The notes beneath the pieces are model-generated. The model did not search any database, had not been told where the DNA came from, and saw only the letters and a program-made list of their open reading frames with translations. The translations under genes and the position numbers were made by a program. A stretch of DNA of 34,674 nt. It comes from Burkholderiaceae bacterium (GTDB lineage: Bacteria; Pseudomonadota; Gammaproteobacteria; Burkholderiales; Burkholderiaceae_D). The stretch lies in assembly GCA_023653025.1 (NCBI GenBank), contig JAMNXS010000028.1:1-34674 (forward strand). The letters run 5' to 3'. Shown piece by piece: positions 3,624-18,379 of this stretch; position 1 is the stretch's first letter; each line of letters starts with the position of its first letter.

Positions 3624-4769
3624 ATGAACAGGATCGCGGTAGTGGGTGCAGGATTTTCGGGCGCCGTAATCGCGCACGAACTGGCGGCCGACGGCCACGA
3701 GGTCGAGGTCTTCGAATCACGCCCGCATGTCGCCGGCAACTGCCACACGGCGCGCGACGAGGAAAGCGGCATCCTGCTGCACCAGTACGGCCCGCATATC
3801 TTCCATACGTCGAATCCAAGGGTCTGGGACTACGTGCGCCGCTTCGACGAGTTCATGCCCTTCACCAACCGTGTCAAGGCGGTTGTGCGCGGACGCGTCT
3901 ACTCGATGCCGGTGAACCTGCACACGATCAACCAGTTCTTCGGGCTGGCGCTCGGGCCGGCCGAGGCCAGAGCCTTCCTCGCCTCGAAGGCCGACCTGTC
4001 GATTGCCGAGCCGCGCACCTTCGAGGAGCAGGCGCTGCGCTTCATGGGTGCCGAACTGTACGAGGCCTTCTTCAAGGGCTACACGCAGAAGCAGTGGGGC
4101 ATGTCGCCGTCGGAGCTGCCGGCGAGCATATTGCGCCGCCTGCCGCTGCGCTTCAACTATGACGACAACTACTACGCCAGCACCTGGCAGGGCATGCCGC
4201 GGCACGGCTACACGCATATCGTCGAGCGCCTGCTCGATGCGCCCGGCATACGCGTGCACCTGGGCGCGCGCTTCGAGCGCGCCATGGCCGGCGACTTCGC
4301 GCGCGTGTTTTACAGCGGCCCGATCGACGCATGGTTCGGCAACGCCGAGGGCAGCCTCGGCTACCGCACGCTGGACTTCGCCGCCGAGCGGCACGCGGGC
4401 GACTTCCAGGGCAATGCGGTCATCAACTACTGCGATCCCGACGTGCCATGGACGCGGATCGCCGAGCACAAGCATTTCGCGCCCTGGGAAAGCCACGAGG
4501 CGACGGTGATCTTCCGCGAGAGCAGCCGGTACTGCGAAAGCGGCGACACGCCGTATTACCCGATACGGCTGGCGAAGGAGAAGGGACAACTGGCGCGCTA
4601 CATCGCACTCGCGCGCGAGGAAAAAAACGTCAGCTTCGTCGGCCGGCTCGGCACCTACCGCTATCTCGACATGCACGTGACGATCGCCGAAGCGCTGGAC
4701 TGGGCCGACCGCTGGCGGGCCGACGGCGTGACCGAGTTGCCGGCGTTCAACGTTGATCCCCTAGGTTAG
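3624..4769 (+). CDS. glf: UDP-galactopyranose mutase
   Basis: The 381-residue product is a flavoenzyme that interconverts UDP-galactopyranose and UDP-galactofuranose in the cytoplasm, giving the galactofuranose donor for surface glycans. The FAD-binding motif GAGFSG lies at residues 8-13, followed by FESRPHVAGNC and HQYGPHIFHT, which are hallmark segments of this family. The length matches the usual 370-390 residues. The ATG at 3624 has AGGAGA seven bases upstream. It follows the GH1/RmlD gene after 38 bases on the same strand and probably belongs to the same transcript. A galactofuranose-containing polymer is inferred from it. Late in the protein, RYLDMHVTIAEAL is the usual C-terminal family motif. 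I am confident of the family and do not see any missing key segment. Confidence 0.93.
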   Translation: MNRIAVVGAGFSGAVIAHELAADGHEVEVFESRPHVAGNCHTARDEESGILLHQYGPHIFHTSNPRVWDYVRRFDEFMPFTNRVKAVVRGRVYSMPVNLHTINQFFGLALGPAEARAFLASKADLSIAEPRTFEEQALRFMGAELYEAFFKGYTQKQWGMSPSELPASILRRLPLRFNYDDNYYASTWQGMPRHGYTHIVERLLDAPGIRVHLGARFERAMAGDFARVFYSGPIDAWFGNAEGSLGYRTLDFAAERHAGDFQGNAVINYCDPDVPWTRIAEHKHFAPWESHEATVIFRESSRYCESGDTPYYPIRLAKEKGQLARYIALAREEKNVSFVGRLGTYRYLDMHVTIAEALDWADRWRADGVTELPAFNVDPLG

Positions 4770-4864
4770 GCCCAGATCGTCTACCGAACAATTAGTTGAC
4801 GTTAATCAACTTGCAACTCGTGGTCCGGATTACCTTGGGGGCGACAAGACGAATCGCCTGACCC

Positions 4865-5311
4865 ATGAAGAAGGTTCATACCCATTACGACAATCTGAAG
4901 ATCGCACGCGATGCGCCGCCCGAGGTCATCCGGGCCGCGTACAAGGCGCTCTGCCACAAATTTCACCCGGACCGCAATGGCGGCAGTCCGCGTGCGACGC
5001 AGACCTTCCAGCTGATCAATACCGCTTACGAGGTGCTGTCCGACCCCGACCGGCGGCAGCAGCATGATGTGTGGATCGCGCAATCGGAGTCGGCGGAGGC
5101 CGGTTCGCGCGCCGCGCCGCGTGCCGCATCATCGTCATCATCGTCCGCGCGCCCGTGGAACGGAAAGGAGAGAAGGCGGCGCGCCTCGACGCCGCCGGGC
5201 GGCCCGGCAATGACCGACCTCGGTGGCCGCCTGCGCCGGCCGGGCGCGATGCTGGTGCTGTGGGCGTCTGCGCTGGTGGGGACCATGGTGTACCTGATCT
5301 ACAGCTCCTGA
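4865..5311 (+). CDS. Membrane-anchored J-domain protein
   Basis: A 148-residue protein with an N-terminal J domain (about residues 5-70) containing the essential HPD motif at His34-Pro35-Asp36, which stimulates Hsp70/DnaK ATPase. The domain is followed by a run of serines and a basic, Pro-rich stretch (about 75-115). A single hydrophobic segment at the extreme C-terminus (about 127-146, MLVLWASALVGTMVYLIY) suggests a tail anchor in the inner membrane with the J domain in the cytoplasm. Gly/Phe and zinc-finger regions of DnaJ are absent, so it is a type III J protein. The start at 4865 has only a weak ribosome-binding site. It stands alone between the glycan genes and a repeat cluster, so its client is unknown. 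The serine run is encoded by a TCATCG-like microsatellite. Confidence 0.8.
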   Translation: MKKVHTHYDNLKIARDAPPEVIRAAYKALCHKFHPDRNGGSPRATQTFQLINTAYEVLSDPDRRQQHDVWIAQSESAEAGSRAAPRAASSSSSSARPWNGKERRRRASTPPGGPAMTDLGGRLRRPGAMLVLWASALVGTMVYLIYSS

Positions 5312-5329
5312 GAGGCCGCAGGTTTGCAT

Positions 5330-5580
5330 GGCGGGTTTCGCTGCGCTCTACCCGCCCTACGGTGCGAAGGTCTAGCGGGACTTCGGGAATCGGGGATCAT
5401 CGATTGTTCGGCGGGTTTCGCTGCGCTCTACCCGCCCTACGGCACTACGGCCTTGCGGGACTTCGGGAATCGGGGATCGTCGATTGTTCGGCGGGTTTCG
5501 CTGCGCTCTACCCGCCCTACCTGACGATGGAATACTGCATGCGGATGACGTAGGGCGGATAGAGCGCAGCGAAATCCGCC
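5330..5580. repeat. REP-like palindrome cluster (three direct copies, one inverted)
   Basis: A 31-bp unit reading GGCGGGTTTCGCTGCGCTCT then ACCCGCCCTAC occurs at 5330-5360, 5410-5440 and 5490-5520, exactly 80 bp apart. An inverted copy with two mismatches lies at 5550-5580. Each unit is itself palindromic: GGCGGGT pairs with ACCCGCC around a 13-base loop. The 50-bp segments between direct copies are nearly the same in their last 36 bases (one difference). The third copy and the inverted copy could pair into a stem of about 30 bp. Such intergenic palindromes are widespread in Proteobacteria. The cluster fills most of the 380-bp gap between 5312 and 5691, where no gene is visible. It may stabilise or terminate the J-protein transcript. 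Confidence 0.88.
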
Positions 5581-5691: not shown

Positions 5692-6699
5692 ATGACCCCA
5701 GCTGCCGAGGAAGCCGCCATCCTGTCCGCCCTGTACCGCATGGGCCTGCTCGAGCCGGGCGAGGCGCCGGCTGTCGTTCCGCTGACCGGGGGCGTGTCCT
5801 CGCTGATCGTGCGCGTCGATACCCGCCGCGGTCCGCTGTGCGTCAAGCAGGCGCTGCCCGAATTGAAGGTGGCCGCCCACTGGAGCGCCCCGCTGTCGCG
5901 CAACCGGGCCGAGGTCGCCTGGATACGCGAGGTCGGCCAGTGGCATCCGGCGGCCGTGCCCGCGATCCTCGGCGAGGACGCCGCCGCACATGCCTTCGCG
6001 ATGGAATGGCTGCAGCCCGATGCGCACCCGGTATGGAAGGCGCAACTGCGCGACGGCGCGATCGATCCGGCCTTCGCCGCAGCCGTCGCCGCGCTGGTCG
6101 CCTCCATTCATGCGCGCAGTGCGGCGCAGCCGCTGCTTGCGGAGCGCTTTGCCAACGACCGGAATTTTTTCGAACTTCGGCTCGATCCCTACTTCCTCGC
6201 CGCGGCGGCTGCCCATCCCGATTGCGCCCCCGTGCTGCGCGCGCTGGTCGAGGCCACGGCCGCGCGCAAGATCGCGCTCGTGCATGGCGACGTCAGCCCG
6301 AAGAACATCCTCGCCGGCCCGCGCGGGCCGGTGCTGCTCGACGCCGAATGCGCGTGGTACGGCGACCCGGCCTTCGATGCCGCTTTCTGCCTGTGCCATT
6401 TGCTGGCCAAGTGCCTGTGGCGGCCGGCACATTCCGATGCCTATCTCGCCTGCTTCGATGCCTTCGCCCGCACCTATCTCGCGCGCTGCGACTGGGAGCC
6501 GGCTCAGGATCTGGAGCGGCGTATCTGCCTGCTGCTGGCGGCCATGCTGCTGGCCCGCGTCGACGGCAAGTCGCCGCTCGAGTACCTGGATGACGATGGA
6601 CGGCGCCGCCAGCGCGCGTTCGCGCGCCGCCACCTGCTGTCGCCCGCCGCCACGCTGGCGGCTATGCATGCCGATTGGAGAAAGGATGTGTGTCAATGA
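5692..6699 (+). CDS. APH/choline-kinase-fold phosphotransferase
   Basis: This 335-residue protein has the aminoglycoside-phosphotransferase fold, which also includes kinases of choline, homoserine and methylthioribose. GGVSSLIVRV at about 28-40 is the nucleotide loop and LCVKQ holds the likely ATP-binding Lys. The Brenner motif HGDVSPKN runs from His198 to Asn205, with the catalytic Asp200. The metal-binding motif is DAE at 217-219 instead of the common DxD, followed by AWYGDPAFD. This resembles the DPEFAFYGPMGFD segment of methylthioribose kinase. Its small-molecule substrate is unknown, and there is no reason to call it a resistance gene. Its stop codon overlaps the ATG of the enolase-like gene, implying a shared pathway. 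A TATAGT at 5656-5661 could be a -10 element, but no good -35 is seen. Confidence 0.8.
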   Translation: MTPAAEEAAILSALYRMGLLEPGEAPAVVPLTGGVSSLIVRVDTRRGPLCVKQALPELKVAAHWSAPLSRNRAEVAWIREVGQWHPAAVPAILGEDAAAHAFAMEWLQPDAHPVWKAQLRDGAIDPAFAAAVAALVASIHARSAAQPLLAERFANDRNFFELRLDPYFLAAAAAHPDCAPVLRALVEATAARKIALVHGDVSPKNILAGPRGPVLLDAECAWYGDPAFDAAFCLCHLLAKCLWRPAHSDAYLACFDAFARTYLARCDWEPAQDLERRICLLLAAMLLARVDGKSPLEYLDDDGRRRQRAFARRHLLSPAATLAAMHADWRKDVCQ

Positions 6700-7970
6700 A
6701 CTCGAGCATCACGCGCGTGCAGGCGCGCCGCATCTGGGATTCGCGCGGACGTCCGACCGTCGAGGTCGATGTGCTGCTGGCCGACGGCAGCGTCGGACGC
6801 GGCATCGCGCCGGCCGGCGCATCGACCGGCAGCCATGAGGCGGTCGAGCTGCGCGACGGCGGCGAGGCCTTCGGCGGCTACGGGGTCCAGCGCGCCATCG
6901 ATGGCATCGGGCGCGAGATCGCACCGGCGCTGGCGGGCCGCGACGCCCGTGCGCAGGAAGAGATCGACCAGCTGCTGGTCGCGCTGGACGGCACGCCGAA
7001 CAAGGCGCGGCTCGGCGGCAACGCGCTGATCGCGACCTCGATGGCCGTGCTCGATGCGGCGGCCCGGTCGGCCCGGCTGCCGCTGTGGAGGTACCTGGCC
7101 GGCGACGCCGAGGTCAGCCTGCCGCTGCCCGAAATCCAGATCTTCGGCGGCGGAGCGCATGCTGGTCGCCGCGTCGACATCCAGGACTTCCTCGTCATGC
7201 CGGTCGGGGCCGCCGACATCGACGAGGCGCTGGCAATGGTAGCCGAGGTCTACCGCGCCGCCGGCCAGTTGATGGCCGACTCGGGGCGGCGTGCCGGCGT
7301 GGCCGACGAGGGGGGCTGGTGGCCCGACTTCGACGGCAATGAAGACGCGCTGCAGATGCTCGCGCGCGCGATCGAGAAGGCGGGCTACCGCCATGGCGAG
7401 GTCATGATCTCGCTTGATATCGCGGCGTCCGAATTCGGCCGCGACGGCGTGTACCGGCCAGCGCTCGAGGGCCGGGCGTTCACTACCGACGAGTGGATCG
7501 CGAAGCTGCTCGACTGGGTGGCAAAGTACCCGATTTTGTCGGTCGAGGACCCGGTCGCGGAAGACGACACGGCCGGCATGATCGCCTTCACGCAGCAGGC
7601 TGGCGGCCGCGTGCAGGTCATCGGCGACGACTATCTGGTGACGAACGCGCAGCGCGTGCGCGATGCGGCGGCCGTGAAGGCCTGCAATGCGGTGCTCATC
7701 AAGCCCAACCAGGCCGGCACGATCAGCGAGACGCGGCAGGCGCTGCTGGCCGCCCGGTCGCTCGGCTGGTCGACCGTCGTCTCGGCACGCTCGGGCGAGT
7801 CGGAAGACGTGATGATTGCCCATCTGGCGGTTGGCTGGAATGCCGGCCAGCTGAAGGTCGGGTCGTTCGCGCGTTCGGAGCGTATGGCGAAATGGAACGA
7901 GCTGCTCAGGATCGACGCCGCGCTCGGTACCCGCGCGCCGTATGCGGGGCGCCGAGCCTTGCCGGTCTGA
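6696..7970 (+). CDS. Enolase paralog with altered active site
   Basis: This 424-residue protein aligns along its whole length with bacterial enolase. The ATG at 6696 overlaps the preceding stop and has AAGGA nine bases upstream, so I prefer it to an ATG at 6675. The three Mg ligands are kept (Asp241, Glu284, Asp311), as are Glu205, Lys336 and Lys387, which correspond to yeast Glu211, Lys345 and Lys396. Two catalytic positions differ: the GGEHA motif reads GGGAHA, with Ala154 replacing yeast Glu168, and SHRSGE reads SARSGE, with Ala364 replacing yeast His373. LIKPNQAG also differs from the usual LIK-[FV]-NQ-IG. Ordinary 2-phosphoglycerate dehydration is therefore doubtful, and the housekeeping enolase is presumably elsewhere. 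Coupling to a small-molecule kinase suggests the kinase makes the phosphorylated substrate, which is inference. Confidence 0.85.
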   Translation: MNSSITRVQARRIWDSRGRPTVEVDVLLADGSVGRGIAPAGASTGSHEAVELRDGGEAFGGYGVQRAIDGIGREIAPALAGRDARAQEEIDQLLVALDGTPNKARLGGNALIATSMAVLDAAARSARLPLWRYLAGDAEVSLPLPEIQIFGGGAHAGRRVDIQDFLVMPVGAADIDEALAMVAEVYRAAGQLMADSGRRAGVADEGGWWPDFDGNEDALQMLARAIEKAGYRHGEVMISLDIAASEFGRDGVYRPALEGRAFTTDEWIAKLLDWVAKYPILSVEDPVAEDDTAGMIAFTQQAGGRVQVIGDDYLVTNAQRVRDAAAVKACNAVLIKPNQAGTISETRQALLAARSLGWSTVVSARSGESEDVMIAHLAVGWNAGQLKVGSFARSERMAKWNELLRIDAALGTRAPYAGRRALPV

Positions 7971-8061: not shown

Positions 8062-10764
8062 ATGCCCGAGCGGAACCCCTTGCGACAGCTTGCCTCCGAT
8101 CGTCAGTTCATTCCCTTCGCGTGGGGTGCGGCATGCGCAGCGGCGCTGGCACTGGTCTGGCTGGTCGGACTGAGCCTGCTGGCCGCCGAGCGCAGTGAAT
8201 TGACGGAGCGCGTGCTGCAGCAGCAGGGCGCGAGCGCGCGGCAGCAGGCGCTAGAGGTCGCGGAATTCGTGCAGGGCGCAGACCAGCTGCTGGTATTGCT
8301 GCGCGACGAGGCAGAGCGCGGCGGCGATCCCTTCCGTCTCGAGCGCTTTGCCACCGGCGTGCTGAGGGGAAAAACCTCGCGCGTCCTGATTGCCGACGCC
8401 GACGGACACATCCTGCTCAACAGCCGCCGTGCCCGCAACACGCCTGCCTTGCAGGACTATCCGCCTTTCCTTGCGCATCGCGCGTCCCCCTACCGGGGCT
8501 TCCGCGCGTTCGAGCGCGTGCCCGATCGCGATGCCCGGGGACGTTCCATCATCGGCCTTTCGCGTCGCATCGACCGGCCCGACGGCCGTTTCGCCGGGAT
8601 CGTGGTGATCGAGACCAGTGCGCCGGAGCTGATGGCGGAGGCCCGCCCGCTGCCGGCCGCGGCGATCGCACTGCAGATGGTGGATGGGCAGCAGGCATGG
8701 GCCGCAGGCGACCGGCATGAGCAGCTCGAGCTCGGCGCTGCCAGCCTGAACCTCGTGCCGACTGCGTATGCGGGCCAGCGCATCGAGCCGGGCGACAGTT
8801 TCACCGATGGCATCACGCGCGCACTCGGCTGGTCGATGGTCGATGGCGCGCCGATGGTCGTGGTCGCCAGCGCCGACCTGCAGGCGGCGCTGGCGCAGCA
8901 CGGATATCGGCCCTGGCAGTGGTTCGGCATGCTGTTCGGGAGCAGTCTGCTGTTGCTGCTGGCCGCAGCAGGCGCAGCGCGGTCGCACCTGCGCCGCCAC
9001 GAACGCCATGTGCGCCAGCAACAGGTGCGCGCGGCTTTCCGCCAGGCGGCCGACGGCACGCTCGACGCCATGTTCACGGTGCGGCCCGTACAGGACGGAA
9101 AGGCGGGAATCGTCGATTTCCTGGTCGACGATTGCAACGAACAGGCTGCCCGACGCGTGGGCCTGACGCGCGACCAGATGCTGGGCCGCACGTTCCGCGA
9201 ACTGATGAGCCGGGCCGATAACGAGCGCATTCATGGTTTCATGCTGCGCGTCGTGGCCGAAGGCCTGGTGGAGGACGAGATCGAGATCGCCAGACCGCAG
9301 GAGCCCGGGCCGGGGCGGTTCGCCGGCGGCTGGATCCATCGCCGCGGCCTCAGCACCGACGGCGGACTGGCCATCACGGTGCGCGACATCAGCGAATCGC
9401 GCGAGCAGCAGGCGGCGATGGCGGCGATGGCGGTCACGGACGCGCTGACGGCCCTGCCAAACCGCCGCTGGCTGGTCGAGCACCTGCAGGACGTGATCGC
9501 GCGCGGGCGGCGGCAGGACAAGATGGTGGCCCTGCTGTTCATCGATCTGGACAACTTCAAGGCAGTCAACGACACGATGGGCCACGAGGCCGGCGACGCG
9601 GTGCTGAGGGACATCGGCGCCTGCCTGCGCGCCTCGGTGCGCGGAACCGACACCGTGGTGCGGCTCGGCGGCGACGAGTTCACGGTGCTGGCCGAGTCGC
9701 TCGACAGCCTCGCGGATGCCGAAGCGCGCGCAGAGCGGCTGATCGCCGCGGTGAACCGCCTGAACGCCGCCAAGCCCTGGGGCGCCTTTGCGGTCACCGC
9801 ATCGGTCGGCATTGCCGTCGCGCCGCTGCACACGAGCGACGCGCACGAACTGCTGCAGTTTGCCGACATCGCGATGTACTCCGCCAAGTCGGCCGGCAAG
9901 GCGCAGTTCTGCAGTTTCGCTGCAAGCTTTGCCGAGGAGTTGCAGCGGCGCGTGCAGCTGCAGCAGGATCTCGCGCGCGCCATCGGCACCGAGCAGCTGT
10001 TGCTCCATTTCCAGCCGCGCGTCGATGTCTTCAGCGGCCGGCTGACCGCGCTCGAGGCGCTGGTGCGCTGGCAGCATCCGGTTCACGGCCTGTTGATGCC
10101 GCAGGAATTCATACCGCTGGCCGAGGAGCGCGGCCTGATCGTGGCGCTTGGGGAATGGGTGCTGTGCTTGCTCTGCCGGCAGCTGCGCGCCTGGCAGGAC
10201 GCGGGGCTCGGCGATTGCCGCGTGGCTTTCAACGTATCGGAACTGCAGTTGCGCAGCGATCGATTCCGGCTGCAACTGATCACGCAGCTGGCCCGTCACG
10301 GGCTGCCGGTCTCGCGCGTTGCGCTCGAACTCACCGAGTCGGCGCTGGGCGAAGATGGCAACGTGCTGACTTCCGAGATACAGCATTTGCGCGACCTGAC
10401 GGTCAGCATCGAGATCGACGATTTCGGCACCGGCATGTCGTCGCTGTCGCGGCTGCAGCGGCTGCAGGTCGATGTGCTGAAGATCGACAAGTCGTTCATC
10501 CACGCGCTCGGGCGCGACCAGCGCAGCGATGCGCTGTGCAGCGCGATCCTGTCGCTCGGGCAGTCGCTCGGCATCACGGTCGTCGCCGAGGGCGTCGAAA
10601 CGCCCGTGCAGCTGGAACATTTGCGCCGCCTCGGCTGCCACGAGGTGCAGGGTTACCTGATCTCGCGTCCGCTGCCGGCGGACGAAGTGGAGCCGCTGAT
10701 GCGGCGCCCGACGCTGCTCGAGCCGGTGGAGCCGTCGCTAGTGCGCTTCAGGCGCAGCCCCTGA
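8062..10764 (+). CDS. Membrane PAS-GGDEF-EAL cyclic-di-GMP protein
   Basis: A 900-residue inner-membrane signalling protein. A transmembrane segment at about 17-42 and a second at 287-308 enclose a periplasmic sensor region, probably Cache-like. A PAS-like region follows (about 325-450). The GGDEF domain carries an intact GGDEF at 536-540 and an RGTD inhibitory-site motif five residues before it. The EAL domain has LEALVRW from 664, NVSELQL, ELTESAL, IDDFGTGMSSL and AEGVETPVQ, so the metal and catalytic residues look complete. Both synthesis and hydrolysis of c-di-GMP are possible. TATAAA at 8022-8027 may be a -10 element; the ribosome-binding site is weak. The 3' end overlaps the 3' end of the convergent M81 gene by 27 bases. 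Nearby exopolysaccharide genes are plausible targets. Confidence 0.92.
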   Translation: MPERNPLRQLASDRQFIPFAWGAACAAALALVWLVGLSLLAAERSELTERVLQQQGASARQQALEVAEFVQGADQLLVLLRDEAERGGDPFRLERFATGVLRGKTSRVLIADADGHILLNSRRARNTPALQDYPPFLAHRASPYRGFRAFERVPDRDARGRSIIGLSRRIDRPDGRFAGIVVIETSAPELMAEARPLPAAAIALQMVDGQQAWAAGDRHEQLELGAASLNLVPTAYAGQRIEPGDSFTDGITRALGWSMVDGAPMVVVASADLQAALAQHGYRPWQWFGMLFGSSLLLLLAAAGAARSHLRRHERHVRQQQVRAAFRQAADGTLDAMFTVRPVQDGKAGIVDFLVDDCNEQAARRVGLTRDQMLGRTFRELMSRADNERIHGFMLRVVAEGLVEDEIEIARPQEPGPGRFAGGWIHRRGLSTDGGLAITVRDISESREQQAAMAAMAVTDALTALPNRRWLVEHLQDVIARGRRQDKMVALLFIDLDNFKAVNDTMGHEAGDAVLRDIGACLRASVRGTDTVVRLGGDEFTVLAESLDSLADAEARAERLIAAVNRLNAAKPWGAFAVTASVGIAVAPLHTSDAHELLQFADIAMYSAKSAGKAQFCSFAASFAEELQRRVQLQQDLARAIGTEQLLLHFQPRVDVFSGRLTALEALVRWQHPVHGLLMPQEFIPLAEERGLIVALGEWVLCLLCRQLRAWQDAGLGDCRVAFNVSELQLRSDRFRLQLITQLARHGLPVSRVALELTESALGEDGNVLTSEIQHLRDLTVSIEIDDFGTGMSSLSRLQRLQVDVLKIDKSFIHALGRDQRSDALCSAILSLGQSLGITVVAEGVETPVQLEHLRRLGCHEVQGYLISRPLPADEVEPLMRRPTLLEPVEPSLVRFRRSP

Positions 10765-12234
10765 GTCCAGCGGATACACGGGCCGGCGCAGCCGCCTGAA
10801 ATCGAAATACGCATAGTTCGAGCTGGTCGGGCCGCCCCGGTCCGAGTCGCATTCGACCAGCCCGCGAGCCAGCGCGCCGAACACGGGCCGGCAGTACATG
10901 CGCGACTTCAGCAGCAGGAAGCGCTGCGCCGCTGGTTCCAGCCCGACGCAGCGGAACACGCCGATGTCATAGGGCTCCATCCGCTTCTCGGTAATCACCA
11001 GATGCGCCGCGCCGATGTCGAGCAGCACGCTGCGGCCCATGTCGGCCTGCGCGCCGGTGTAGATCGGGCCGCTGACGGTGAAGCGCCCGTCGCTGTGTGC
11101 GCGCACGGTGCCCGCCACCAGCATCGGCTGACGCGTGTCCGTTGCGTGGATCCGGAAGCGGTTGCCGAGATCGACCTCGACATGCGCGCCATCGCGCGCG
11201 TCCCACAGTTGCGCGACCGCTTGCGGATCGCAGATCGGGCCGGCGGCGATGCCGGTCAGGCCGGCCTCCAGCGCCGCAGCCAGCACGTCCATCGTGTCGC
11301 AGGTGCCGCCGGACATCACGTTATCGCTGTGGTCGAGCAGCAGCACCGGGCCTTGGCCCGGCAGCGCGGCCAGCGCGCGCGCGCGCTCGAGCGAAGCCGC
11401 CAGCGGCTCGCTGCGCCAGACGAAGCCTTCGCGCTCGCGCCAGAGCTGCGCGGCCAGCTCATCGGCCAGCCGGTCGGCCAGCGCCGCATCATCGTCGGTG
11501 ACCACAATCACCGACATCCCCGCATCGTTGAAATCGGCGAGCGAGAAGCCGGCCATCACCGTGACGGCCTGCACGCCGGGCTGCGACTCCATCGCGCGCG
11601 CGGCCTGCACCGCGCGCTGCATCGCGCCTTCGTTCGTGTTGCTGCACAGCGTATGCGACAGCAGCGGCAGCTGGCGCCAGCGCATTACGGGACGCGCCTT
11701 GCCGTCGAGCCAGTCCAGCAGCAGCCGGCCGGCATGTTCGCCGGTCTCGGCCATGTCGATGTGCGGATAGGTCTTGAAGCCGACGACGAGATCGGCATGC
11801 TCGACCATGGCCGGCGTCACGTTGCCGTGCAGGTCGAGCGCGACGGCGATCGGTACGTTGGGCGCACGCGCGCGCAGGCGTCGCAGCAGTTCGCCCTCGC
11901 CGTCAGGTACCTGCGCGGCCACCATCGCGCCGTGCAGGTCGAGCAGGACCGCATCGATGTCGGAAGCGAGCGCGTCGACGATGCAGCCGACCAGGTGTTC
12001 GTAGGCGGCCGCATCGACGGTGCCGCCGGGATTGGCGGTCGCCGACACCGGCGTGACCAGCGTGCTGCCCGGCCGCGCCTCGAGCAGCCGGATGAACGCG
12101 CCCATCGCGGTGCGCGCCGCGCGCTCGCCGGCGAGTGCGTCAGCGCCGTAGCGCGGCTCGAAATCGGCCAGCGTCGTGCACAGCGGCGAGAAGGTATTGG
12201 TCTCATGGTTGAGCCGCGCGACCAGGAATTTCAT
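10738..12234 (-). CDS. M81 family metallopeptidase (MlrC-like)
   Basis: A 498-residue protein of the MlrC/M81 family, named for the last enzyme of microcystin breakdown, although most members have unknown natural substrates. The N-terminal RLNHETNTFSP (residues 7-17) is the family signature. LLDLHGAM (about 97-104) and LDLHGNV (about 133-139) are conserved family segments that include likely metal ligands, and DHSDNVMSGGTCDT occurs later. There is no signal peptide, so it acts in the cytoplasm. The ATG overlaps the stop of the acyl-CoA ligase gene upstream (ATGA), marking it as the last gene of the transporter operon. An amide- or peptide-like imported substrate is suggested by the neighbours. 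Its 3' end runs 27 bases into the convergent GGDEF-EAL gene, and no terminator is visible there. Confidence 0.88.
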   Translation of the reverse strand: MKFLVARLNHETNTFSPLCTTLADFEPRYGADALAGERAARTAMGAFIRLLEARPGSTLVTPVSATANPGGTVDAAAYEHLVGCIVDALASDIDAVLLDLHGAMVAAQVPDGEGELLRRLRARAPNVPIAVALDLHGNVTPAMVEHADLVVGFKTYPHIDMAETGEHAGRLLLDWLDGKARPVMRWRQLPLLSHTLCSNTNEGAMQRAVQAARAMESQPGVQAVTVMAGFSLADFNDAGMSVIVVTDDDAALADRLADELAAQLWREREGFVWRSEPLAASLERARALAALPGQGPVLLLDHSDNVMSGGTCDTMDVLAAALEAGLTGIAAGPICDPQAVAQLWDARDGAHVEVDLGNRFRIHATDTRQPMLVAGTVRAHSDGRFTVSGPIYTGAQADMGRSVLLDIGAAHLVITEKRMEPYDIGVFRCVGLEPAAQRFLLLKSRMYCRPVFGALARGLVECDSDRGGPTSSNYAYFDFRRLRRPVYPLDSGAAPEAH

Positions 12235-13793
12235 CGCAGTGCGCGCTTGAGCAGCTTGCCGTTGGCGTTGCGCGGCAGCGGCGCATCGACGAACACGACC
12301 TGTTCCGGCACCTTGTAGTCGGCCAGCCGCGCCGCGCAGTGCGCGCGCACCGCAGCGGCGTCGAGTGAGGCGGCTGGAGCGTACAGGTAGGCATGCACGC
12401 GCTCGCCGAGCACCTCGCACGGGTGCCCGACCACGGCCGCCTCGACCACGCCGGGCAGCGCCATCAGCGCGTTCTCGACCTCGACCGAATAGATCTTGAA
12501 GCCGCCGCGGTTGATCATGTCCTTGATGCGATCGAAGATGCGCACCAGTCCGCGCGCATCGACCGCGCCCAGGTCGCCCGAGCGCCAGCGGCCGTCGACG
12601 AAGCCTTTGGCGGTGGCGTCGGGATTGTCCCAGTAGCCGGGCACGACCATCGGCCCGCCGATCAGCAACTCGCCGCTGTCCCCCGCAGCGACGGGGTGGC
12701 CGCCCTCGTCGACGACACGGATATCGGCGCAGGGCGCGGCGATGCCGACGCTGTCGTTGTGGATGGCCGACAGGCCGAGCGGCATGATGGTGGCCGGCGA
12801 TGCAGTCTCTGTCGATCCGTAGCAATTGACCAGCGTCAGCCCCGGCACGGCCTCGGCCAGTGTCTGCACGGTCGGCACCGGCATCGGCGCGCCGCCGAAG
12901 CCGCCGACCCGCCATGCGCCGAGGTCGAGCGTCCTGAAGGCCGGCTGCAGCAGGCACAGCTGGTACATCGCCGGCACCATCAGCGAGTAACTGATGCGCT
13001 CGCGCGCGGCCAATTCGACAAAGGAGGGCGCCTTGAACTCGGGGACGATGACCAGCGTGCCGCCGACATGGACGATGGCCGCGATCAGCGCGACCAGCCC
13101 CGTCACGTGGCTGGCCGGCACGGCCAGCGCCGCGCGGTCATGGGCGGTCAGCTTGAACGCGACCTCATAGTGAATGACCGAATGCGCGATATTGAAGTGC
13201 GTGAGCATCGCGCCCTTGGGATGGCCGGTGGTGCCGGACGTGTAGAGGATGCACGCGCAGTCGTCCTCGGAGACGGTGGCAGGCGTGGCCGACACTGCCG
13301 AATCGGCGCGGGCCAGCTCGCCCAGCGGCAGCCGCCACGACAGGCAGGGCGCCGCGTCGGCCTGCGGAATCCGGTCGGCCAGCGCGTCGTCGAACACGAT
13401 GCCGGTCGCGCCGCACTGGTTGACGATGAAGGCCAGCCCCGGCGCCTGCTCGCGGGTGCCGACTGGCACCGCGATCGCGCCCAGCTGTTGCAGGGCGAAC
13501 AGCACGAACACGAACTCCGGCCGGTTGCTGATGAACATCACCACGCGCTGCCCGCGGCGCAGGCCCCGGTCCGCCAGCACGCGCGCGATGCGCTCGGTTT
13601 CGGCGGCGGCCTGCGCATAGGTCCAGCGCTGTCCGTCGCAGCTGATGGCCTCGCGATGCGGACCGGCCGCTACCGCGCGCGTGAACATCGCATGCATCGA
13701 CGGCGGCCGCTCGGCAAAGCAGCGCAGCGTGCGTCCGTAGTGCTGCTCGGTGCGCAGGGCCGGCAGCGCGACGTGGTCATCCCAGCGGATCAT
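12231..13793 (-). CDS. AMP-forming acyl-CoA synthetase / ligase
   Basis: A 520-residue member of the ANL superfamily that should activate a carboxylic acid with ATP and join it to CoA. The phosphate loop YTSGTTGHPKG lies at about 184-194, the A5 motif appears as NCYGSTETASP, the A7/A8 hinge as SGDLGAVDARGLVRIFDRIKD, and the acyl-adenylation lysine is in NANGKLL (Lys513). All core motifs are intact and the length is normal. The start at 13793 is chosen because its ATG overlaps the stop of the LivF-like gene. The substrate acid is not predictable from sequence. Its position between the transporter ATPase and the M81 gene suggests that the imported compound, or a product from it, is CoA-activated; this is inference. 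Confidence 0.9.
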   Translation of the reverse strand: MIRWDDHVALPALRTEQHYGRTLRCFAERPPSMHAMFTRAVAAGPHREAISCDGQRWTYAQAAAETERIARVLADRGLRRGQRVVMFISNRPEFVFVLFALQQLGAIAVPVGTREQAPGLAFIVNQCGATGIVFDDALADRIPQADAAPCLSWRLPLGELARADSAVSATPATVSEDDCACILYTSGTTGHPKGAMLTHFNIAHSVIHYEVAFKLTAHDRAALAVPASHVTGLVALIAAIVHVGGTLVIVPEFKAPSFVELAARERISYSLMVPAMYQLCLLQPAFRTLDLGAWRVGGFGGAPMPVPTVQTLAEAVPGLTLVNCYGSTETASPATIMPLGLSAIHNDSVGIAAPCADIRVVDEGGHPVAAGDSGELLIGGPMVVPGYWDNPDATAKGFVDGRWRSGDLGAVDARGLVRIFDRIKDMINRGGFKIYSVEVENALMALPGVVEAAVVGHPCEVLGERVHAYLYAPAASLDAAAVRAHCAARLADYKVPEQVVFVDAPLPRNANGKLLKRALR

Positions 13794-14431
13794 CCGAGGT
13801 TTTCGCCGCGTTCGATCACGATCTCGGCATCGAGCAGGTTGCGGGAATGGTTGAGGTCGGACTGGGCGATCAGCACCGACAGTTCGCCGCCGCGCAGGCC
13901 AGCGATCACCTCGGCCAGCCGCGCCGACAGGGCCGGCGCGACGCCCTCGAAGGGCTCGTCGAGCAGCAGCAGCTTCGTTCCCACCGCAAGCGCGCGCGCC
14001 AGCGCCACCAGCTTCTGCTGGCCGCCGGAGAGCAGCAGCGCGCGCCGCTCGCGCATGTCCTTGAGTTCGGGCAGCACGCCATAGACGAAGTCCAGCCGAT
14101 CGGTACAGCGCTTGCTGCCGGTGGCCCACAATGGGACCAGAATGTTTTCCTCGACCGACAGTTCGGGCACCAGGCCGCGGTCCTCCGGCATGTAGCCGAT
14201 GCCGAGCGGCGCGCGCAGATGCGGCGGCAGGCGGTCGAGTGCATGGCCGTCGAAGCTGACCGAGCCGCCCGCCAGCGGCAGGTGGCCCATGATGGTGCGC
14301 AGCGTGGTGGTCTTGCCTGCGCCGTTGCGGCCGACCAGCCCGACCATCTTGCCCTGGCCGACTTCCAGCGACAGGCCACGCAGCACCGGCGCCGACTGTA
14401 TCGCGACTTCGATTGCGCGGACCTCAAGCAT
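13790..14431 (-). CDS. LivF-like ABC transporter ATPase
   Basis: A 213-residue ATPase of the branched-chain amino acid type (HAAT) ABC importer. Walker A is GRNGAGKTT at 34-42, the signature is LSGGQQKLVALARAL, and Walker B is LLLLDEPFEGVAP. The H-loop region reads IAQSD, in line with LivF proteins, in which the usual histidine is often replaced. The frame is open 24 codons further upstream, but the start at 14431 matches the conserved MLEVRAIEV beginning and overlaps the end of the LivG-like gene by eight bases. At 213 residues it is slightly shorter than typical LivF (about 233). It works with the LivG-like subunit at the cytoplasmic face of the permease. Confidence 0.9.
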   Translation of the reverse strand: MLEVRAIEVAIQSAPVLRGLSLEVGQGKMVGLVGRNGAGKTTTLRTIMGHLPLAGGSVSFDGHALDRLPPHLRAPLGIGYMPEDRGLVPELSVEENILVPLWATGSKRCTDRLDFVYGVLPELKDMRERRALLLSGGQQKLVALARALAVGTKLLLLDEPFEGVAPALSARLAEVIAGLRGGELSVLIAQSDLNHSRNLLDAEIVIERGENLG

Positions 14432-15197
14432 GCGGCGCTCCCTGTGTCTTGCGGCCGGTGACATGGCGCTGCACGTCGGCGTCGGACAGAACTTCTTCGA
14501 CATGGCCGTCGGCGATGATGCGGCCGCTGTAGAAGGCGACGACGCGCTGGGCGTAGCGGGCCACGATGTCCATGTCGTGCTCGACGAACAGCACGGTGGC
14601 GGCTTCGTGCGACAGCGCGCGCATGACGGTTTCCATCAGCGGGAATTTTTCGTCGGCGGCCACGCCCGAGGTTGGCTCGTCGAGCAGCAGCACCTTCGGA
14701 TGGCGGGTCAGGGCCATCGCGATGTCGAGCAGCTTGCGCAGGCCGCCGGGCAGTTCGCCGACGCGCCGCCGCGCGTGGGCGGCCAGCTCGAAGCGCTCGA
14801 GCAGCGCCTCTGCGCGCTCTTGCGCGGCGCGGCTGCCGGCCGGCCGCCACGGCGATTGTTCGCCCGATTGCGCCGCGATCGCCACCAGCAGGTTATCGGT
14901 GACGGACAAATCCTTGAACAATTGCGGCACCTGGAAAGAGCGCGCAATGCCCATCCGCGCGATGGCGCGCGGCGGCAGCCCGAGGATACTGTCGCCGTGC
15001 AGCAGGATCTGGCCGGCATCAGGCCGGATGTAGCCGGTCAGCATGTTGACGAAGGTGGTCTTGCCGGCGCCGTTGCTGCCGATCAGGCTGACGCGCTGGC
15101 CGGCCGGCACGTTGAGGTCGATGTCGGCCGCCGCGACCACGGCGCCGAAGCGCTTTTGCACGCCGACCGCGCTGATGGCGAGTTCGTAGTGCGTCAT
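14424..15197 (-). CDS. LivG-like ABC transporter ATPase
   Basis: A 257-residue ATPase of the HAAT-type importer. Walker A is GSNGAGKTT at 40-48. The Q-loop region includes ARSFQVPQLF. The signature motif is LPGGLRKLLDIAMAL, with Pro and Leu where LSGGQ is usual; a relaxed signature is common in LivG. Walker B is VLLLDEPTSGV and the H-loop is FVEHDMD. The ATG at 15197 overlaps the stop of the LivM-like permease gene (ATGA), so the permease and ATPase are probably made in a fixed ratio. The length is normal for the family. It should pair with the LivF-like protein. Confidence 0.91.
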   Translation of the reverse strand: MTHYELAISAVGVQKRFGAVVAAADIDLNVPAGQRVSLIGSNGAGKTTFVNMLTGYIRPDAGQILLHGDSILGLPPRAIARMGIARSFQVPQLFKDLSVTDNLLVAIAAQSGEQSPWRPAGSRAAQERAEALLERFELAAHARRRVGELPGGLRKLLDIAMALTRHPKVLLLDEPTSGVAADEKFPLMETVMRALSHEAATVLFVEHDMDIVARYAQRVVAFYSGRIIADGHVEEVLSDADVQRHVTGRKTQGAPHA

Positions 15198-16144
15198 GCG
15201 TGCGCTCCACGCTGGCGGCGCGCCAGCCACAGCGAGCCGATACCGCCGGGCAGGAAGCGGATCACCGCCAGCAGGAACATGCCGAGCGCCAGCTGCCAGC
15301 TGTTCGGGAACCAGGCGCTGGAAAACGAGCGCACCATTTCCAGTGCGGCCGAAGCCACGAAGGCGGCCAGCACGCTGTGGTGGCCGGCAAGGATGGCGAC
15401 GAAGACGAAGTCGCCCGAGCGCGTCCAGTAGCTGAATTCCGGCTCGACATGGCCGAGCGCCATCACGGCCAGCGCGCCACCCATGCCGCCGATGAACGCG
15501 GCGACGATGAAATGGCTGGCGATCAGCGCTTGTACCGAGCTGCCGAGGTACTCGACGCGGATCTCGTTGTCGCGCGCAGCCAGCGCGACCAGCCCGCGCG
15601 CCGAGTCGAAATAGATGCGCATTGCGATGCCGACCGCGGCCGACAGCACGACCGTCACCGCATAGCCGGCATAGCCGCTGTCGCCCGCCGGCAGGCCGAA
15701 CAGGGTGGGGCGACCCATGTTGAAGCCGTCCGAGCCGCCGAAGGACTGCGACTTCAGCAGCAGCCCGTAGAGCACCATCGACAGCGCCAGCGACAGCATC
15801 GCGAAGAAGATACCGCGGTAGCGCGCGATCAGCCACGCAAACGGCGCGGCGATGGCGGCGGCGACCGCGCCGCCCAGCAGCGCCAGCAGCAGCGCGTCGC
15901 TGATGCCGAGACGGCCGAAGGCGAGCGCCGCCGTGTAGCCGCCGGCGGCGAACACGAGACCCTGGCCGAAGGAGACCACGCCGCAGCGCATCAGCAGCAC
16001 GATGCCGAGCGAGACGAGGCCCTGGGCGGCGGCCATGGTGACGAGGAAGGCCAGCCAGCGTGGCATGGCCAGGCCTGCGGCCAGCAGCAGGCCGGCGGCC
16101 AGCAGGCCGGCGAGCGCGGTGCGCAGGGGGGAATGGGCATTCAT
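15194..16144 (-). CDS. LivM-like ABC transporter permease
   Basis: A 316-residue, highly hydrophobic permease with about nine or ten predicted membrane segments, starting with a hydrophobic stretch at about 11-45. The conserved permease region LALAARDNEIRVEYLGSSVQ lies in the cytoplasmic loop that contacts the ATPases. The start at 16144 is chosen because the ATG shares one base with the LivH stop (TGATG) and begins MNAHSPLRTAL. A longer open frame upstream overlaps the LivH gene and has no membrane-protein character. The C-terminus is basic (LARRQRGAHA). It should form a heterodimer with the LivH-like protein in the inner membrane. Confidence 0.88.
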   Translation of the reverse strand: MNAHSPLRTALAGLLAAGLLLAAGLAMPRWLAFLVTMAAAQGLVSLGIVLLMRCGVVSFGQGLVFAAGGYTAALAFGRLGISDALLLALLGGAVAAAIAAPFAWLIARYRGIFFAMLSLALSMVLYGLLLKSQSFGGSDGFNMGRPTLFGLPAGDSGYAGYAVTVVLSAAVGIAMRIYFDSARGLVALAARDNEIRVEYLGSSVQALIASHFIVAAFIGGMGGALAVMALGHVEPEFSYWTRSGDFVFVAILAGHHSVLAAFVASAALEMVRSFSSAWFPNSWQLALGMFLLAVIRFLPGGIGSLWLARRQRGAHA

Positions 16145-17040
16145 CAGATCTTCCTTGCCTGCACGCGCTGGAACAGCCCTTCGGGGCGGAACATCAGCAC
16201 GATGGCCATCACGCCATAGATGGAAAACAGCTCGGCTTCCGGCATCAGGTGCACGGCGGCCGAGCGCGCCAGGCCGACAATCAGCGCGCCGATCGCCGCG
16301 CCCGGTATGCTGCCGAGCCCGCCGATGATGACGACGGCGAACGAGACGATGATCACGCCCACCGACACGCCGGGCTGTACCGAGATCATCGGCGCGGTCA
16401 GCGCGCCGCCCAGCGCGGCCAGGAAAATCCCGGTGCCGAAGGCGAGCGTGTAGATGCGCGATACGTTCACGCCCATGCTGGCGGCGACCTCCTCGCTGTG
16501 GATGACGGCCAGCACGATCTTGCCGGTGCGGGTGCGGGTCAGCCCCCACCAGACCGCGGTGCCGACAACCAGCGCAACGGCCACCAGCGCAAAGTCATAG
16601 CCGACATAGGACAGTTCGCCAAAATCGACGGTGCCGAACAGCATGTAGGGCTCGGACACGTAGAGCGGGTTCACGCCCCAGATCAGCTTGGTGACGTCCT
16701 CCAGGATCAGGAACAGTGCAAAGGTGACCAGCACCAGCAGCACCTCGTCGCGGCCATAGAAAGTGCGCAGCAGGCCGCGCTCGCACAGCGGCGCGACCAG
16801 CGCGGCCACCGCCACCGCCGCCAGCAGCATCGCGACCACCGACAGCGCCGGCGCGAACTGCAGGCTGGCGAACCAGCCGACCAGCGTCGCGGCCGCATAC
16901 GCTCCGAGCGCGTAGAAGCTGCCGTGCGCGACATTGAGGATCTTGAGCACGCCGAACACCAGCGTCAGCCCGAGCGCGACGATGAACAGCCATGACGCGT
17001 AGGTCAGGCCGTCGATCAGGATGGTGGCCGTCAGCATCAT
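16144..17040 (-). CDS. LivH-like ABC transporter permease
   Basis: A 298-residue inner-membrane permease of the HAAT family. The N-terminal region GLTLVFGVLKILNVAHGSFYALGAYAA (quoted in part: GLTLVFGVLKILNVAHG) is a clear LivH signature. The cytoplasmic loop contains HSEEVAASMGVNVSRIYTLA, close to the usual EAA-like contact site. The later GGLGSIPGAAIGALIVG is also typical. Two adjacent ATG codons at 17040 and 17037 could start it. It lies 16 bases downstream of the binding-protein gene and shares one base with livM. The family transports branched-chain amino acids, amides, urea or aromatic acids, so the substrate cannot be named here. Confidence 0.9.
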   Translation of the reverse strand: MMLTATILIDGLTYASWLFIVALGLTLVFGVLKILNVAHGSFYALGAYAAATLVGWFASLQFAPALSVVAMLLAAVAVAALVAPLCERGLLRTFYGRDEVLLVLVTFALFLILEDVTKLIWGVNPLYVSEPYMLFGTVDFGELSYVGYDFALVAVALVVGTAVWWGLTRTRTGKIVLAVIHSEEVAASMGVNVSRIYTLAFGTGIFLAALGGALTAPMISVQPGVSVGVIIVSFAVVIIGGLGSIPGAAIGALIVGLARSAAVHLMPEAELFSIYGVMAIVLMFRPEGLFQRVQARKI

Positions 17041-17056
17041 GGCAGTCTGCGCAGCG

Positions 17057-18379
17057 TCACTGGCACTTCGCGCCGGGGAAGCCGGCCTTGATCCAGTCCT
17101 CGGATTTCATGTTGGCCGGCGGGTTCACGCATTCGGCGGCGAAGCGCTGTATGTCTTCCATCACGATCAGCTTTTTCGATGCATCCCATTTCGTGCGGCC
17201 GATGGCGGTCGGCTGGATCGCCTGCTGGCCATCGCCGAGTGCCATCCGGATGCGGCCGCCGGGCGAATCCCACTCCGAGCCGCGCAGCGCGGAGGCGATC
17301 TGCTCGGTCGTCGGCTTCTTGCCGCCGTTGGCCGCCATCGCCTTCTCGACCGCGAGCTTGACGCCCATCAGCGCCTGCGCCATCCGGTACGGCGCCTGCA
17401 CCGGGTAGACGCCGTTCTTGTCCTGGTAGAGCTTCCACCACCAGTCGTTCAGGTCGGACTTTGCGGCCAGCATGCCGTAAGCGCCGCGCGCACCGAGTAC
17501 CACGCCCTCGGGCATCTTGTCGCCAAGCGGCACCAGCACATGGTCGGCCGCCGTCAGCACCACCTGCGAGCGCTTGAACATGCCGCGCGGCGCGGCTTGC
17601 AGCACCATGGCCTGCAGGTCGCCGCCCCACAGGCTGGAGTGGGTGATGTCGGCCGGGCGCGACATCAGTTGCGAGATCTCGGTGCCGTACTGGCCGGCGC
17701 CGAATTTCGGTCGCTGGTCGGATTGCACCTTCGCCTCGGGATACAGCACCGCCATCGACAGCGTGAAGTCCTTCAGCGAATCATGCCCCCAGGCATAGTC
17801 CTGGTTGATCATGTTGATCGTGCCGACCTTCACATTGCGCGCTTTCAGGTAGCGGGCGACGGCGACGTTATCCATCGCCGCATGCGAGGCTGTGCGGAAC
17901 ACGTATTGGTATTTTGCTTCCTCGAAGATGCGCGGCGTGCCGCAGTCGTACAGCACGAGCAGCTTCTTCATTTCCTCGGCCACCGGCGACACCGCGAGGC
18001 AGTCGCCGGAACTGACATAGCCGATCACGAGGTCGACCTTTTCGCGGTCGTACAGGTTGCGCAGTTCCTGCACCTGCTTGGTCGCGCCGCCGTTTTCATC
18101 GACGTAGACCGGCACGATCTTCAGGCCGCCCATGCCCGGCTTGTTGTACGGCGCCGGAGCGCTGCCACCATTGAAGGCGTCGATCAGCACCTTTGCGCCA
18201 TTGACGGCTGGCACGCCGAAGCTGTCGGCTGCTTGACCCGACAGAAAGCTGACGACGCCTATCCGGATTTCCTGCGCACCTGCATGGCCGGCAAGGCCGA
18301 GCATCAGCGTGACACCCGCCGCAGCGGCGAGCGATCGAAGCGCAGCGCGTGCGGATGACAGTGTGGGGGTGTGCTTCAT
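17057..18379 (-). CDS. Periplasmic substrate-binding protein of HAAT-type ABC transporter
   Basis: A 440-residue periplasmic binding protein with a type I (LivK/AmiC-like) fold. Residues 1-35 form a signal peptide with a likely cut at AGA|QE, after which the mature protein starts EIRIGVVSFLSG, the usual first strand and binding loop. GYVSSGDCLAVSPVAEEMKKL and the later GMLAAKSDLNDWWWKLYQDK support the fold. A strong ribosome-binding site, GGGAGGAGA, sits just before the ATG at 18379, which decides the start. It is the first gene of the operon and probably the most highly translated, as expected for a binding protein. The ligand is unknown. AMP-ligase and M81 genes downstream suggest an acid or amide that is catabolised after uptake. 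Confidence 0.92.
   Translation of the reverse strand: MKHTPTLSSARAALRSLAAAAGVTLMLGLAGHAGAQEIRIGVVSFLSGQAADSFGVPAVNGAKVLIDAFNGGSAPAPYNKPGMGGLKIVPVYVDENGGATKQVQELRNLYDREKVDLVIGYVSSGDCLAVSPVAEEMKKLLVLYDCGTPRIFEEAKYQYVFRTASHAAMDNVAVARYLKARNVKVGTINMINQDYAWGHDSLKDFTLSMAVLYPEAKVQSDQRPKFGAGQYGTEISQLMSRPADITHSSLWGGDLQAMVLQAAPRGMFKRSQVVLTAADHVLVPLGDKMPEGVVLGARGAYGMLAAKSDLNDWWWKLYQDKNGVYPVQAPYRMAQALMGVKLAVEKAMAANGGKKPTTEQIASALRGSEWDSPGGRIRMALGDGQQAIQPTAIGRTKWDASKKLIVMEDIQRFAAECVNPPANMKSEDWIKAGFPGAKCQ

Follow-up and report, generated by a model that had tools for sequence, protein, structure and literature searches.

We analyzed a 34,674-nucleotide stretch of DNA, here called the window (positions 1 to 34,674 of contig JAMNXS010000028.1, assembly GCA_023653025.1), from a Burkholderiaceae bacterium whose genome assembly comprises 2.89 Mb in 126 contigs and is 95.8% complete. 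Our subject is a pair of overlapping genes that encode a small-molecule kinase and a paralogue of enolase. The kinase gene (5692–6699, + strand) encodes 335 amino acids, and its product was assigned a 5-methylthioribose (MTR) kinase fold from its open reading frame (ORF), an AF2 model, Foldseek and its TIGR01767 score. The second gene (6696–7970, + strand; ATG at 6696) encodes a 424-residue protein that ORF analysis, domain searches and alignments place in an enolase subgroup of what we call the Asp/Ala type. The two ORFs bear out the overlap described in the initial annotation of this DNA: they share the letters ATGA (6696–6699, + strand), which hold the kinase stop and the enolase start.

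The AF2 model of the kinase reached a predicted local distance difference test (pLDDT) score of 96.3. The top 15 Foldseek matches to the model were all MTR kinase entries (E 2.7e-16 to 5.3e-13, 15–17% identity; template-modelling (TM) score 0.81 by query at E 2.7e-16), and after these came PsiK, LxmK and phosphotransferases. The modelled fold thus agrees with the likeness to MTR kinase that had been noted from the DAE metal motif, and both expected motifs are present, the HGD of the catalytic loop at residues 198–200 (6283–6291, + strand) and the DAE at residues 217–219 (6340–6348, + strand). Among 44 aligned kinases, window included, His198, Gly199, Asp200, Asp217 and Glu219 are invariant and Ala218 is nearly so; Lys52, Trp115-Lys116, Ser202-Pro-Lys-Asn205, His236 and Lys240 are also invariant. 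While it shares its fold, HGD loop and D-x-E motif with MTR kinase (MtnK), the window protein differs from MtnK in its low sequence identity, in having an enolase paralogue as partner, and in its TIGR01767 MTRK score of 56.6 bits, which is far under the cut-off of 275 and rules out a true MTR kinase. Homologues carry the database name aminoglycoside phosphotransferase, and the window kinase itself matches zero Pfam families at E ≤ 1e-3. Three classes of glycerate kinase, I, II and III, are described (PMC2063504); by that description the window kinase falls in none of the three, as it has no Pfam match at E 1e-3 and its best fold matches are MTR kinases.

The paralogue contains both enolase Pfam domains at full length (Enolase_N, 164.9 bits; Enolase_C, 295.1 bits) and scores 493.3 bits against TIGR01060 eno, above the cut-off of 300, so annotation pipelines call it phosphopyruvate hydratase. 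Its active site was compared in an alignment of 125 rows made up of the window protein, 123 homologues and the organism's own ordinary enolase, in which several loci repeat one genome and rows with fewer than 350 aligned residues were dropped. The three Mg ligands, Asp241, Glu284 and Asp311, and the Lys336/Lys387 pair are present in the alignment, as the initial annotation had stated, and the protein also keeps Ser43 (yeast Ser39), His155 (His159), Gln163, Glu205 (Glu211), Arg365 and Ser366. The yeast numbers are those that we take to be equivalent, and they were partly checked against the enolase of Chloroflexus. In the latter, Glu165, Glu206, Lys338, Arg367 and Ser368 lie around 2-phosphoglycerate (PMC4450660), and by our reading these ligands would match window positions 164, 205, 336, 365 and 366 in kind and order.

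Two catalytic residues were originally thought to have been lost from the paralogue, and this holds for only one of them. Ala364 (7785–7787, + strand) replaces yeast His373; the position is alanine in 122/122 readable non-canonical rows (two more are truncated) and histidine in the host's canonical enolase and in all 47 canonical enolases. The residue named as the counterpart of Glu168, Ala154, was misassigned: it precedes His155 and is also alanine in 37 of the 47 canonical sequences. The true equivalent is Asp164 (7185–7187, + strand), in a QDF that stands for QEF, and this position is aspartate in 124/124 non-canonical rows and glutamate in 47/47 canonical ones. Glu168 is therefore swapped for Asp, and acid chemistry at that site may persist. 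The AlphaFold model of the paralogue (pLDDT 85.5) is of low confidence in two active-site loops, residues 42–62 and 153–157.

Conservation of the signature and of the gene pair

The two changes are fixed in the sampled family. When identical sequences were removed and rows with fewer than 380 aligned residues were dropped, 160 distinct enolases remained, of which 112 are Asp/Ala at the two positions, 47 are Glu/His and one is Asp/Gly. The window protein, with Asp164 and Ala364, departs at both positions from the Glu/His kept by all 47 canonical enolases, a sample that comprises Pseudomonadota and Streptomyces only, so that the haloarchaeal copies were compared without haloarchaeal housekeeping enolases. 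The metal ligands and the equivalents of Lys345, Lys396, Glu211, Arg374 and Ser375 are identical in the 159 tabulated rows (105 of the window's clade, clade I; 7 of clade II; 47 canonical; a row from Enterobacter lies outside the table). Compared with housekeeping enolase (EC 4.2.1.11), the paralogue thus retains both Pfam domains and these residues along with the equivalents of His159 and Ser39, but differs by Glu168 to Asp, His373 to Ala, Asn to Gly or Ser at 151 and Gly to Ala at 203, the last two being further differences between the Asp/Ala and Glu/His groups, and in being linked to a kinase. Clade I additionally has Trp209, Phe150 (104/105) and Val388. Asp/Ala partners from Haladaptatus, Halomarina, Rhodococcus, Methylobacterium and Sphingobium, which are only 44–49% identical to the window copy, adjoin the kinase too.

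An unrooted maximum-likelihood tree of 91 rows, for which a random 35 clade I rows were drawn plus the window, places the 47 canonical enolases on one side of a branch (100/99) and seven divergent Asp/Ala copies on one side of another (98/83); the window's clade forms a weakly supported side (67/33). Long branches meet at the Enterobacter row, which is very divergent and whose position in the tree means little, and the haloarchaeal and Enterobacter rows have an odd residue composition. At this Enterobacter plasmid locus (L135; 8226–9497, − strand, and 9896–10951, + strand) a very divergent kinase lies beside an enolase-like ORF of 37% identity with Asp at position 168 and Gly at 373, and the surroundings, with genes for a U32 peptidase, an aminotransferase, a nucleotidyltransferase and an MFS protein, look like a biosynthetic cluster.

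Linkage between the two genes was examined at the best 80 of at least 564 related loci, and the counts hold for these nearest relatives only. The kinase was found at 74 of the 80. In 62 cases at most 300 bp separate the two genes, which then invariably share a strand, with the kinase in first position 60 times; in the other 12 the kinase is 0.4–8.7 kb away, four times on the opposite strand. As for the six loci without a kinase, in L051, L067 and L102 the contig edge falls at the enolase, in L092 the upstream sequence extends for 3.4 kb, and L078 and L093 show no visible reason. A kinase match was obtained in 48 of the 300 genomes of the order and was strong (E < 1e-70) in 42. In 41 of these 42 the paralogue is on the same strand within 2 kb (kinase to Enolase_C domain), which indicates that the pairing is not due to chance. 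In the exception (G241) kinase and paralogue are on different contigs, the kinase match being 448 bases from the contig end. A phylum-wide draw gave a strong kinase match in 9 of 398 genomes, own included. The pair is found in Pseudomonadota, Actinomycetota and haloarchaea; this conservation across bacteria and haloarchaea strengthens the earlier suggestion that kinase and enolase-like protein belong to an undescribed pathway. Among the matches listed for the titles and abstracts of the open-licence PubMed Central (PMC) literature there was no description of a kinase–enolase pair.

The paralogue is not the sole enolase of its host, so that two of the conditions set for refuting the initial annotation, a lack of any other enolase gene and a pair not conserved among relatives, both fail. 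A separate, ordinary enolase is present on another contig (C91) and scores 447 bits versus 296 for the window copy, the two being 47% identical. The 42 pair-positive genomes contain a full-length second enolase in 37 cases and contig-edge fragments in three, and the two that have none are incomplete (84% and 89%); an ordinary enolase is likewise present in 16/16 further carriers. Class II D-glycerate kinase occurs in 39/42 pair-positive versus 122/258 pair-negative genomes (Fisher p 6e-9, uncorrected for phylogeny; host copy on contig C74), while class I occurs in 0/42 versus 76/258, and three pair-positive genomes have neither class. These counts rule out the pair as a replacement for D-glycerate kinase. 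Because an ordinary enolase and a class II D-glycerate kinase are already there, an additional, modified set suggests another substrate.

Genes around the pair

In the window the pair stands alone, flanked by a DnaJ-like ORF and a GGDEF/EAL-type ORF (both named by eye), and the window begins at the end of its contig. Further on (10738–18379, − strand) an MlrC-like gene, an AMP-ligase-like gene and a branched-chain-type ABC transporter form a run that resembles an operon; apart from one permease identified by Pfam, they were named by eye. Several Oxalobacteraceae (L024, 3263–4408, + strand, and relatives) have a gene resembling FMN-dependent L-lactate dehydrogenase (by eye) upstream of the DnaJ-like gene and the pair, and this gene family (F34) occurs in 5/80 loci; none was noticed upstream of the window pair, where the window starts at the contig end. 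At four loci (L031, L034, L036 and L041) in metagenome-assembled genomes of Comamonadaceae/Burkholderiales a stand-alone pair lies between FtsY-like and RpoH-like ORFs (by eye), with no recognised sugar genes.

At some of the relatives' loci, including those of at least 15 kb counted below, genes were called by a simple codon-composition script, which misses genes, and labelled by BLAST to annotated plasmid genes. The commonest labelled neighbours are a CtBP-like 2-hydroxyacid dehydrogenase (26/80 loci) and an FAH-type hydrolase (18/80); one or the other is within 5 kb in 21 of the 52 loci of at least 15 kb. Conversely, up to 18 of the 45 readable loci of this length have no labelled catabolic gene within 5 kb, a figure that is an upper bound and skips the 7 of 52 without a labelled enolase. 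For the two neighbouring dehydrogenases that were tested, a phosphoglycerate dehydrogenase model gave the best scores and a glyoxylate reductase model good ones, none of which reached its cut-off.

Several neighbourhoods resemble sugar-acid clusters. Plasmids of Paracoccus and Roseibium have the order LacI, kinase, enolase, FAH and SDR, followed by a sugar ABC transporter. At an alphaproteobacterial locus (L201), SDR, FAH, enolase, kinase and LacI genes lie near galactonate-dehydratase-like, second SDR, SMP30-type lactonase and talarate-dehydratase-like genes. Against a model of 2,4-didehydro-3-deoxy-L-rhamnonate hydrolase, whose cut-off is 500 bits, the FAH proteins of L201 and Paracoccus (L125) score 334 and 352 bits, respectively. 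One FAH, that of L201, was also compared with solved structures, of which 8gsr is the nearest (E 2.5e-82). The nearest structures of the SDR name no substrate, and the dehydratases do not identify the sugar, since all models score below their cut-offs and several specificities score alike. On haloarchaeal plasmids the pair is surrounded by several mandelate-racemase-family dehydratases and SDRs, plus an aldolase-type gene; in three of these (L134, L136 and L138) the sugar-acid cluster also contains a ketol-acid reductoisomerase-like gene and one or two chaperonin-like genes. Two Rhizobium plasmids carry the kinase, a CtBP-like dehydrogenase and phosphoenolpyruvate (PEP) carboxylase in one run, near which are the enolase, a VOC dioxygenase, a cupin, a CMD-type gene, an alcohol dehydrogenase and a branched-chain-type ABC transporter. 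The one VOC dioxygenase from clusters with the pair that was scanned is HpaD-like, at 272.5 bits against a cut-off of 321.4.

The host genome has one close FAH relative (contig C37 of genome G000, 4599–5429; locus L236, 4596–5447), which is 51% identical to the L201 hydrolase. It adjoins a glutathione-transferase-like gene and was therefore dismissed as a marker of a diketo-hydrolase sugar cluster.

A proposed glycerate module and its alternatives

The genes and the way they are linked, the fixed changes in the active site, the co-resident ordinary enolase and the neighbouring gene families are all observed; from these we infer the substrate, regiochemistry, stereochemistry and product of the pair. 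Our tentative proposal is that the two genes form one metabolic module, in which the kinase would phosphorylate glycerate, with the L form favoured, and the altered enolase would dehydrate the product to PEP. The kinase would transfer phosphate from ATP to the 2-hydroxyl group of a small 2,3-dihydroxy acid, with glycerate the likeliest candidate. The succession of kinase and enolase makes chemical sense, as the kinase would create a 2-phospho-3-hydroxy acid, the smallest of which derives from glycerate. With two Mg ions and the Lys336/Glu205 pair, the paralogue may then remove water from the 2-phospho acid to give PEP, while Asp164, Ala364 and their fixed neighbours (Asn to Gly151, Gly to Ala203) would reshape the pocket around C3 for a substrate closed to housekeeping enolase. 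The more specific form of this proposal, a fourth, fold-distinct class of glycerate kinase coupled to a mirror-image enolase (L-glycerate to L-2-phosphoglycerate to PEP), we consider doubtful.

The initial annotation had favoured a different enolase-superfamily reaction, which the active site does not bear out: the metal ligands and the equivalents of Lys345, Glu211, Arg374 and Ser375 are all kept. These residues, together with the PEP carboxylase and hydroxyacid dehydrogenase genes present in some of the clusters, fit better with an unchanged type of reaction, in which water is removed to form a PEP-type product, but with a substrate that is different or of the opposite hand. The PEP carboxylase of the Rhizobium clusters speaks for PEP as the product.

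In some organisms the glycerate module may end a sugar-acid route in which a dehydratase, a 4-dehydrogenase and a 2,4-diketo-acid hydrolase would yield pyruvate and glycerate; at stand-alone loci, the host's included, it may salvage the acid. The known members of the 2,4-diketo-3-deoxy-L-rhamnonate hydrolase group release pyruvate and L-lactate (PMC11199699). Diketo-acid hydrolases free pyruvate plus the acid formed from C4 upward, which on a hexonate would be glycerate, and glycerate from L-galactose is named in the title of an old report (as cited in PMC13406643). If L-sugars were the source, the freed glycerate would be L. The alphaproteobacterial loci resemble the nonphosphorylated L-rhamnose/L-fucose route in having the hydrolase family and an SDR beside the pair, but that route, by the same account (PMC11199699), ends in pyruvate and L-lactate and has no place for a kinase or an enolase unless the acid is glycerate.

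Several findings weigh against the glycerate module as proposed. The CtBP-like dehydrogenases belong to a D-2-hydroxyacid family, a membership that would be in keeping with D-glycerate and the ordinary 2-phosphoglycerate. The change to Asp164 is conservative, and the His to Ala and Glu to Asp changes enlarge the pocket and do not mirror it, so that the substrate could be bulkier. When either class I or class II glycerate kinase is counted, the contrast between pair-positive and pair-negative genomes shrinks to 39/42 versus 194/258 (p 0.009, phylogeny ignored). The extradiol-dioxygenase clusters of Rhizobium, Streptomyces and Paraburkholderia are left unexplained. In the host, there are no sugar-acid genes by the pair and no upstream route was recognised; the FAH on C37 is probably a fumarylpyruvate hydrolase, and the best counterpart of the CtBP-like dehydrogenase shares only 38% identity with it and is encoded on another contig.

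One alternative is that the substrate of the module is a larger 2,3-dihydroxy acid, or an acid whose C3 carries a different group (for instance a tetronate or a 3-substituted lactate); the product would then be a substituted PEP, or PEP itself if the C3 group were lost. Both changed positions create space, presumably on the C3 side of the pocket, going by yeast structures; the clusters with VOC dioxygenase, cupin, CMD-type and alcohol-dehydrogenase genes have no obvious source of glycerate. However, clade I gained the bulky residues Trp209 and Phe150 nearby, and the Rhizobium PEP carboxylase fits PEP itself, and we regard this reading as unlikely.

In the serine cycle, hydroxypyruvate reductase, glycerate 2-kinase, enolase and PEP carboxylase act in one segment, and genes of all four types occur together on the Rhizobium plasmids. 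The paralogue might accordingly be a catabolic isozyme of ordinary enolase and the kinase a D-glycerate 2-kinase of a new fold class, leading from hydroxypyruvate through D-glycerate and D-2-phosphoglycerate to PEP; the preferences of the two tested dehydrogenases, though below cut-off, and the TIGR01060 score also agree with this. Yet the Rhizobium set differs from the serine cycle in the fold of its kinase and in its altered enolase, and no other serine-cycle gene is named in the regions viewed. Moreover, 112 enolases of the kinase-linked type differ at both the Glu168 and the His373 position, whereas 47/47 housekeeping enzymes keep these residues, and the pair-positive genomes, host included, mostly (39/42) have a class II D-glycerate kinase already, plus ordinary enolase. 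We judge an ordinary isozyme rather unlikely.

Carboxyphosphonoenolpyruvate (CPEP) synthase is an enolase homologue recruited for another reaction, and the paralogue may resemble it in this respect. A role unrelated to sugar acids at stand-alone loci, in which the pair would make or remove a phosphorylated side product (metabolite repair), or a phosphonate-type function of the paralogue like that of CPEP synthase, would suit the loci without a labelled catabolic neighbour and the pair beside FtsY-like and RpoH-like ORFs, but is very unlikely, as the same orthologues sit in clear catabolic clusters elsewhere and, in the annotated regions inspected, none of the pair's neighbours is labelled as a phosphonate gene.

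Enolase is the textbook example of an enzyme with one reaction, and automatic annotation names the Asp/Ala copies phosphopyruvate hydratase. Since this subgroup is widespread, linked to a kinase and fixed for two substitutions at catalytic sites, the label is probably incorrect or incomplete for its members, and a second function of enolase may exist. Judging by catalogue numbers in a paper on CpgD (PMC13228409), 2-phosphoglycerate is sold in both enantiomeric forms, so the question of substrate can be tested directly. The two-residue fingerprint, Asp168/Ala373, lets the subgroup be told from ordinary enolases, and the candidate substrates are few. If true, the L-glycerate reading would mean that a dedicated route of L-glycerate assimilation, recognizable by this fingerprint, lies hidden among genes annotated as ordinary enolase.

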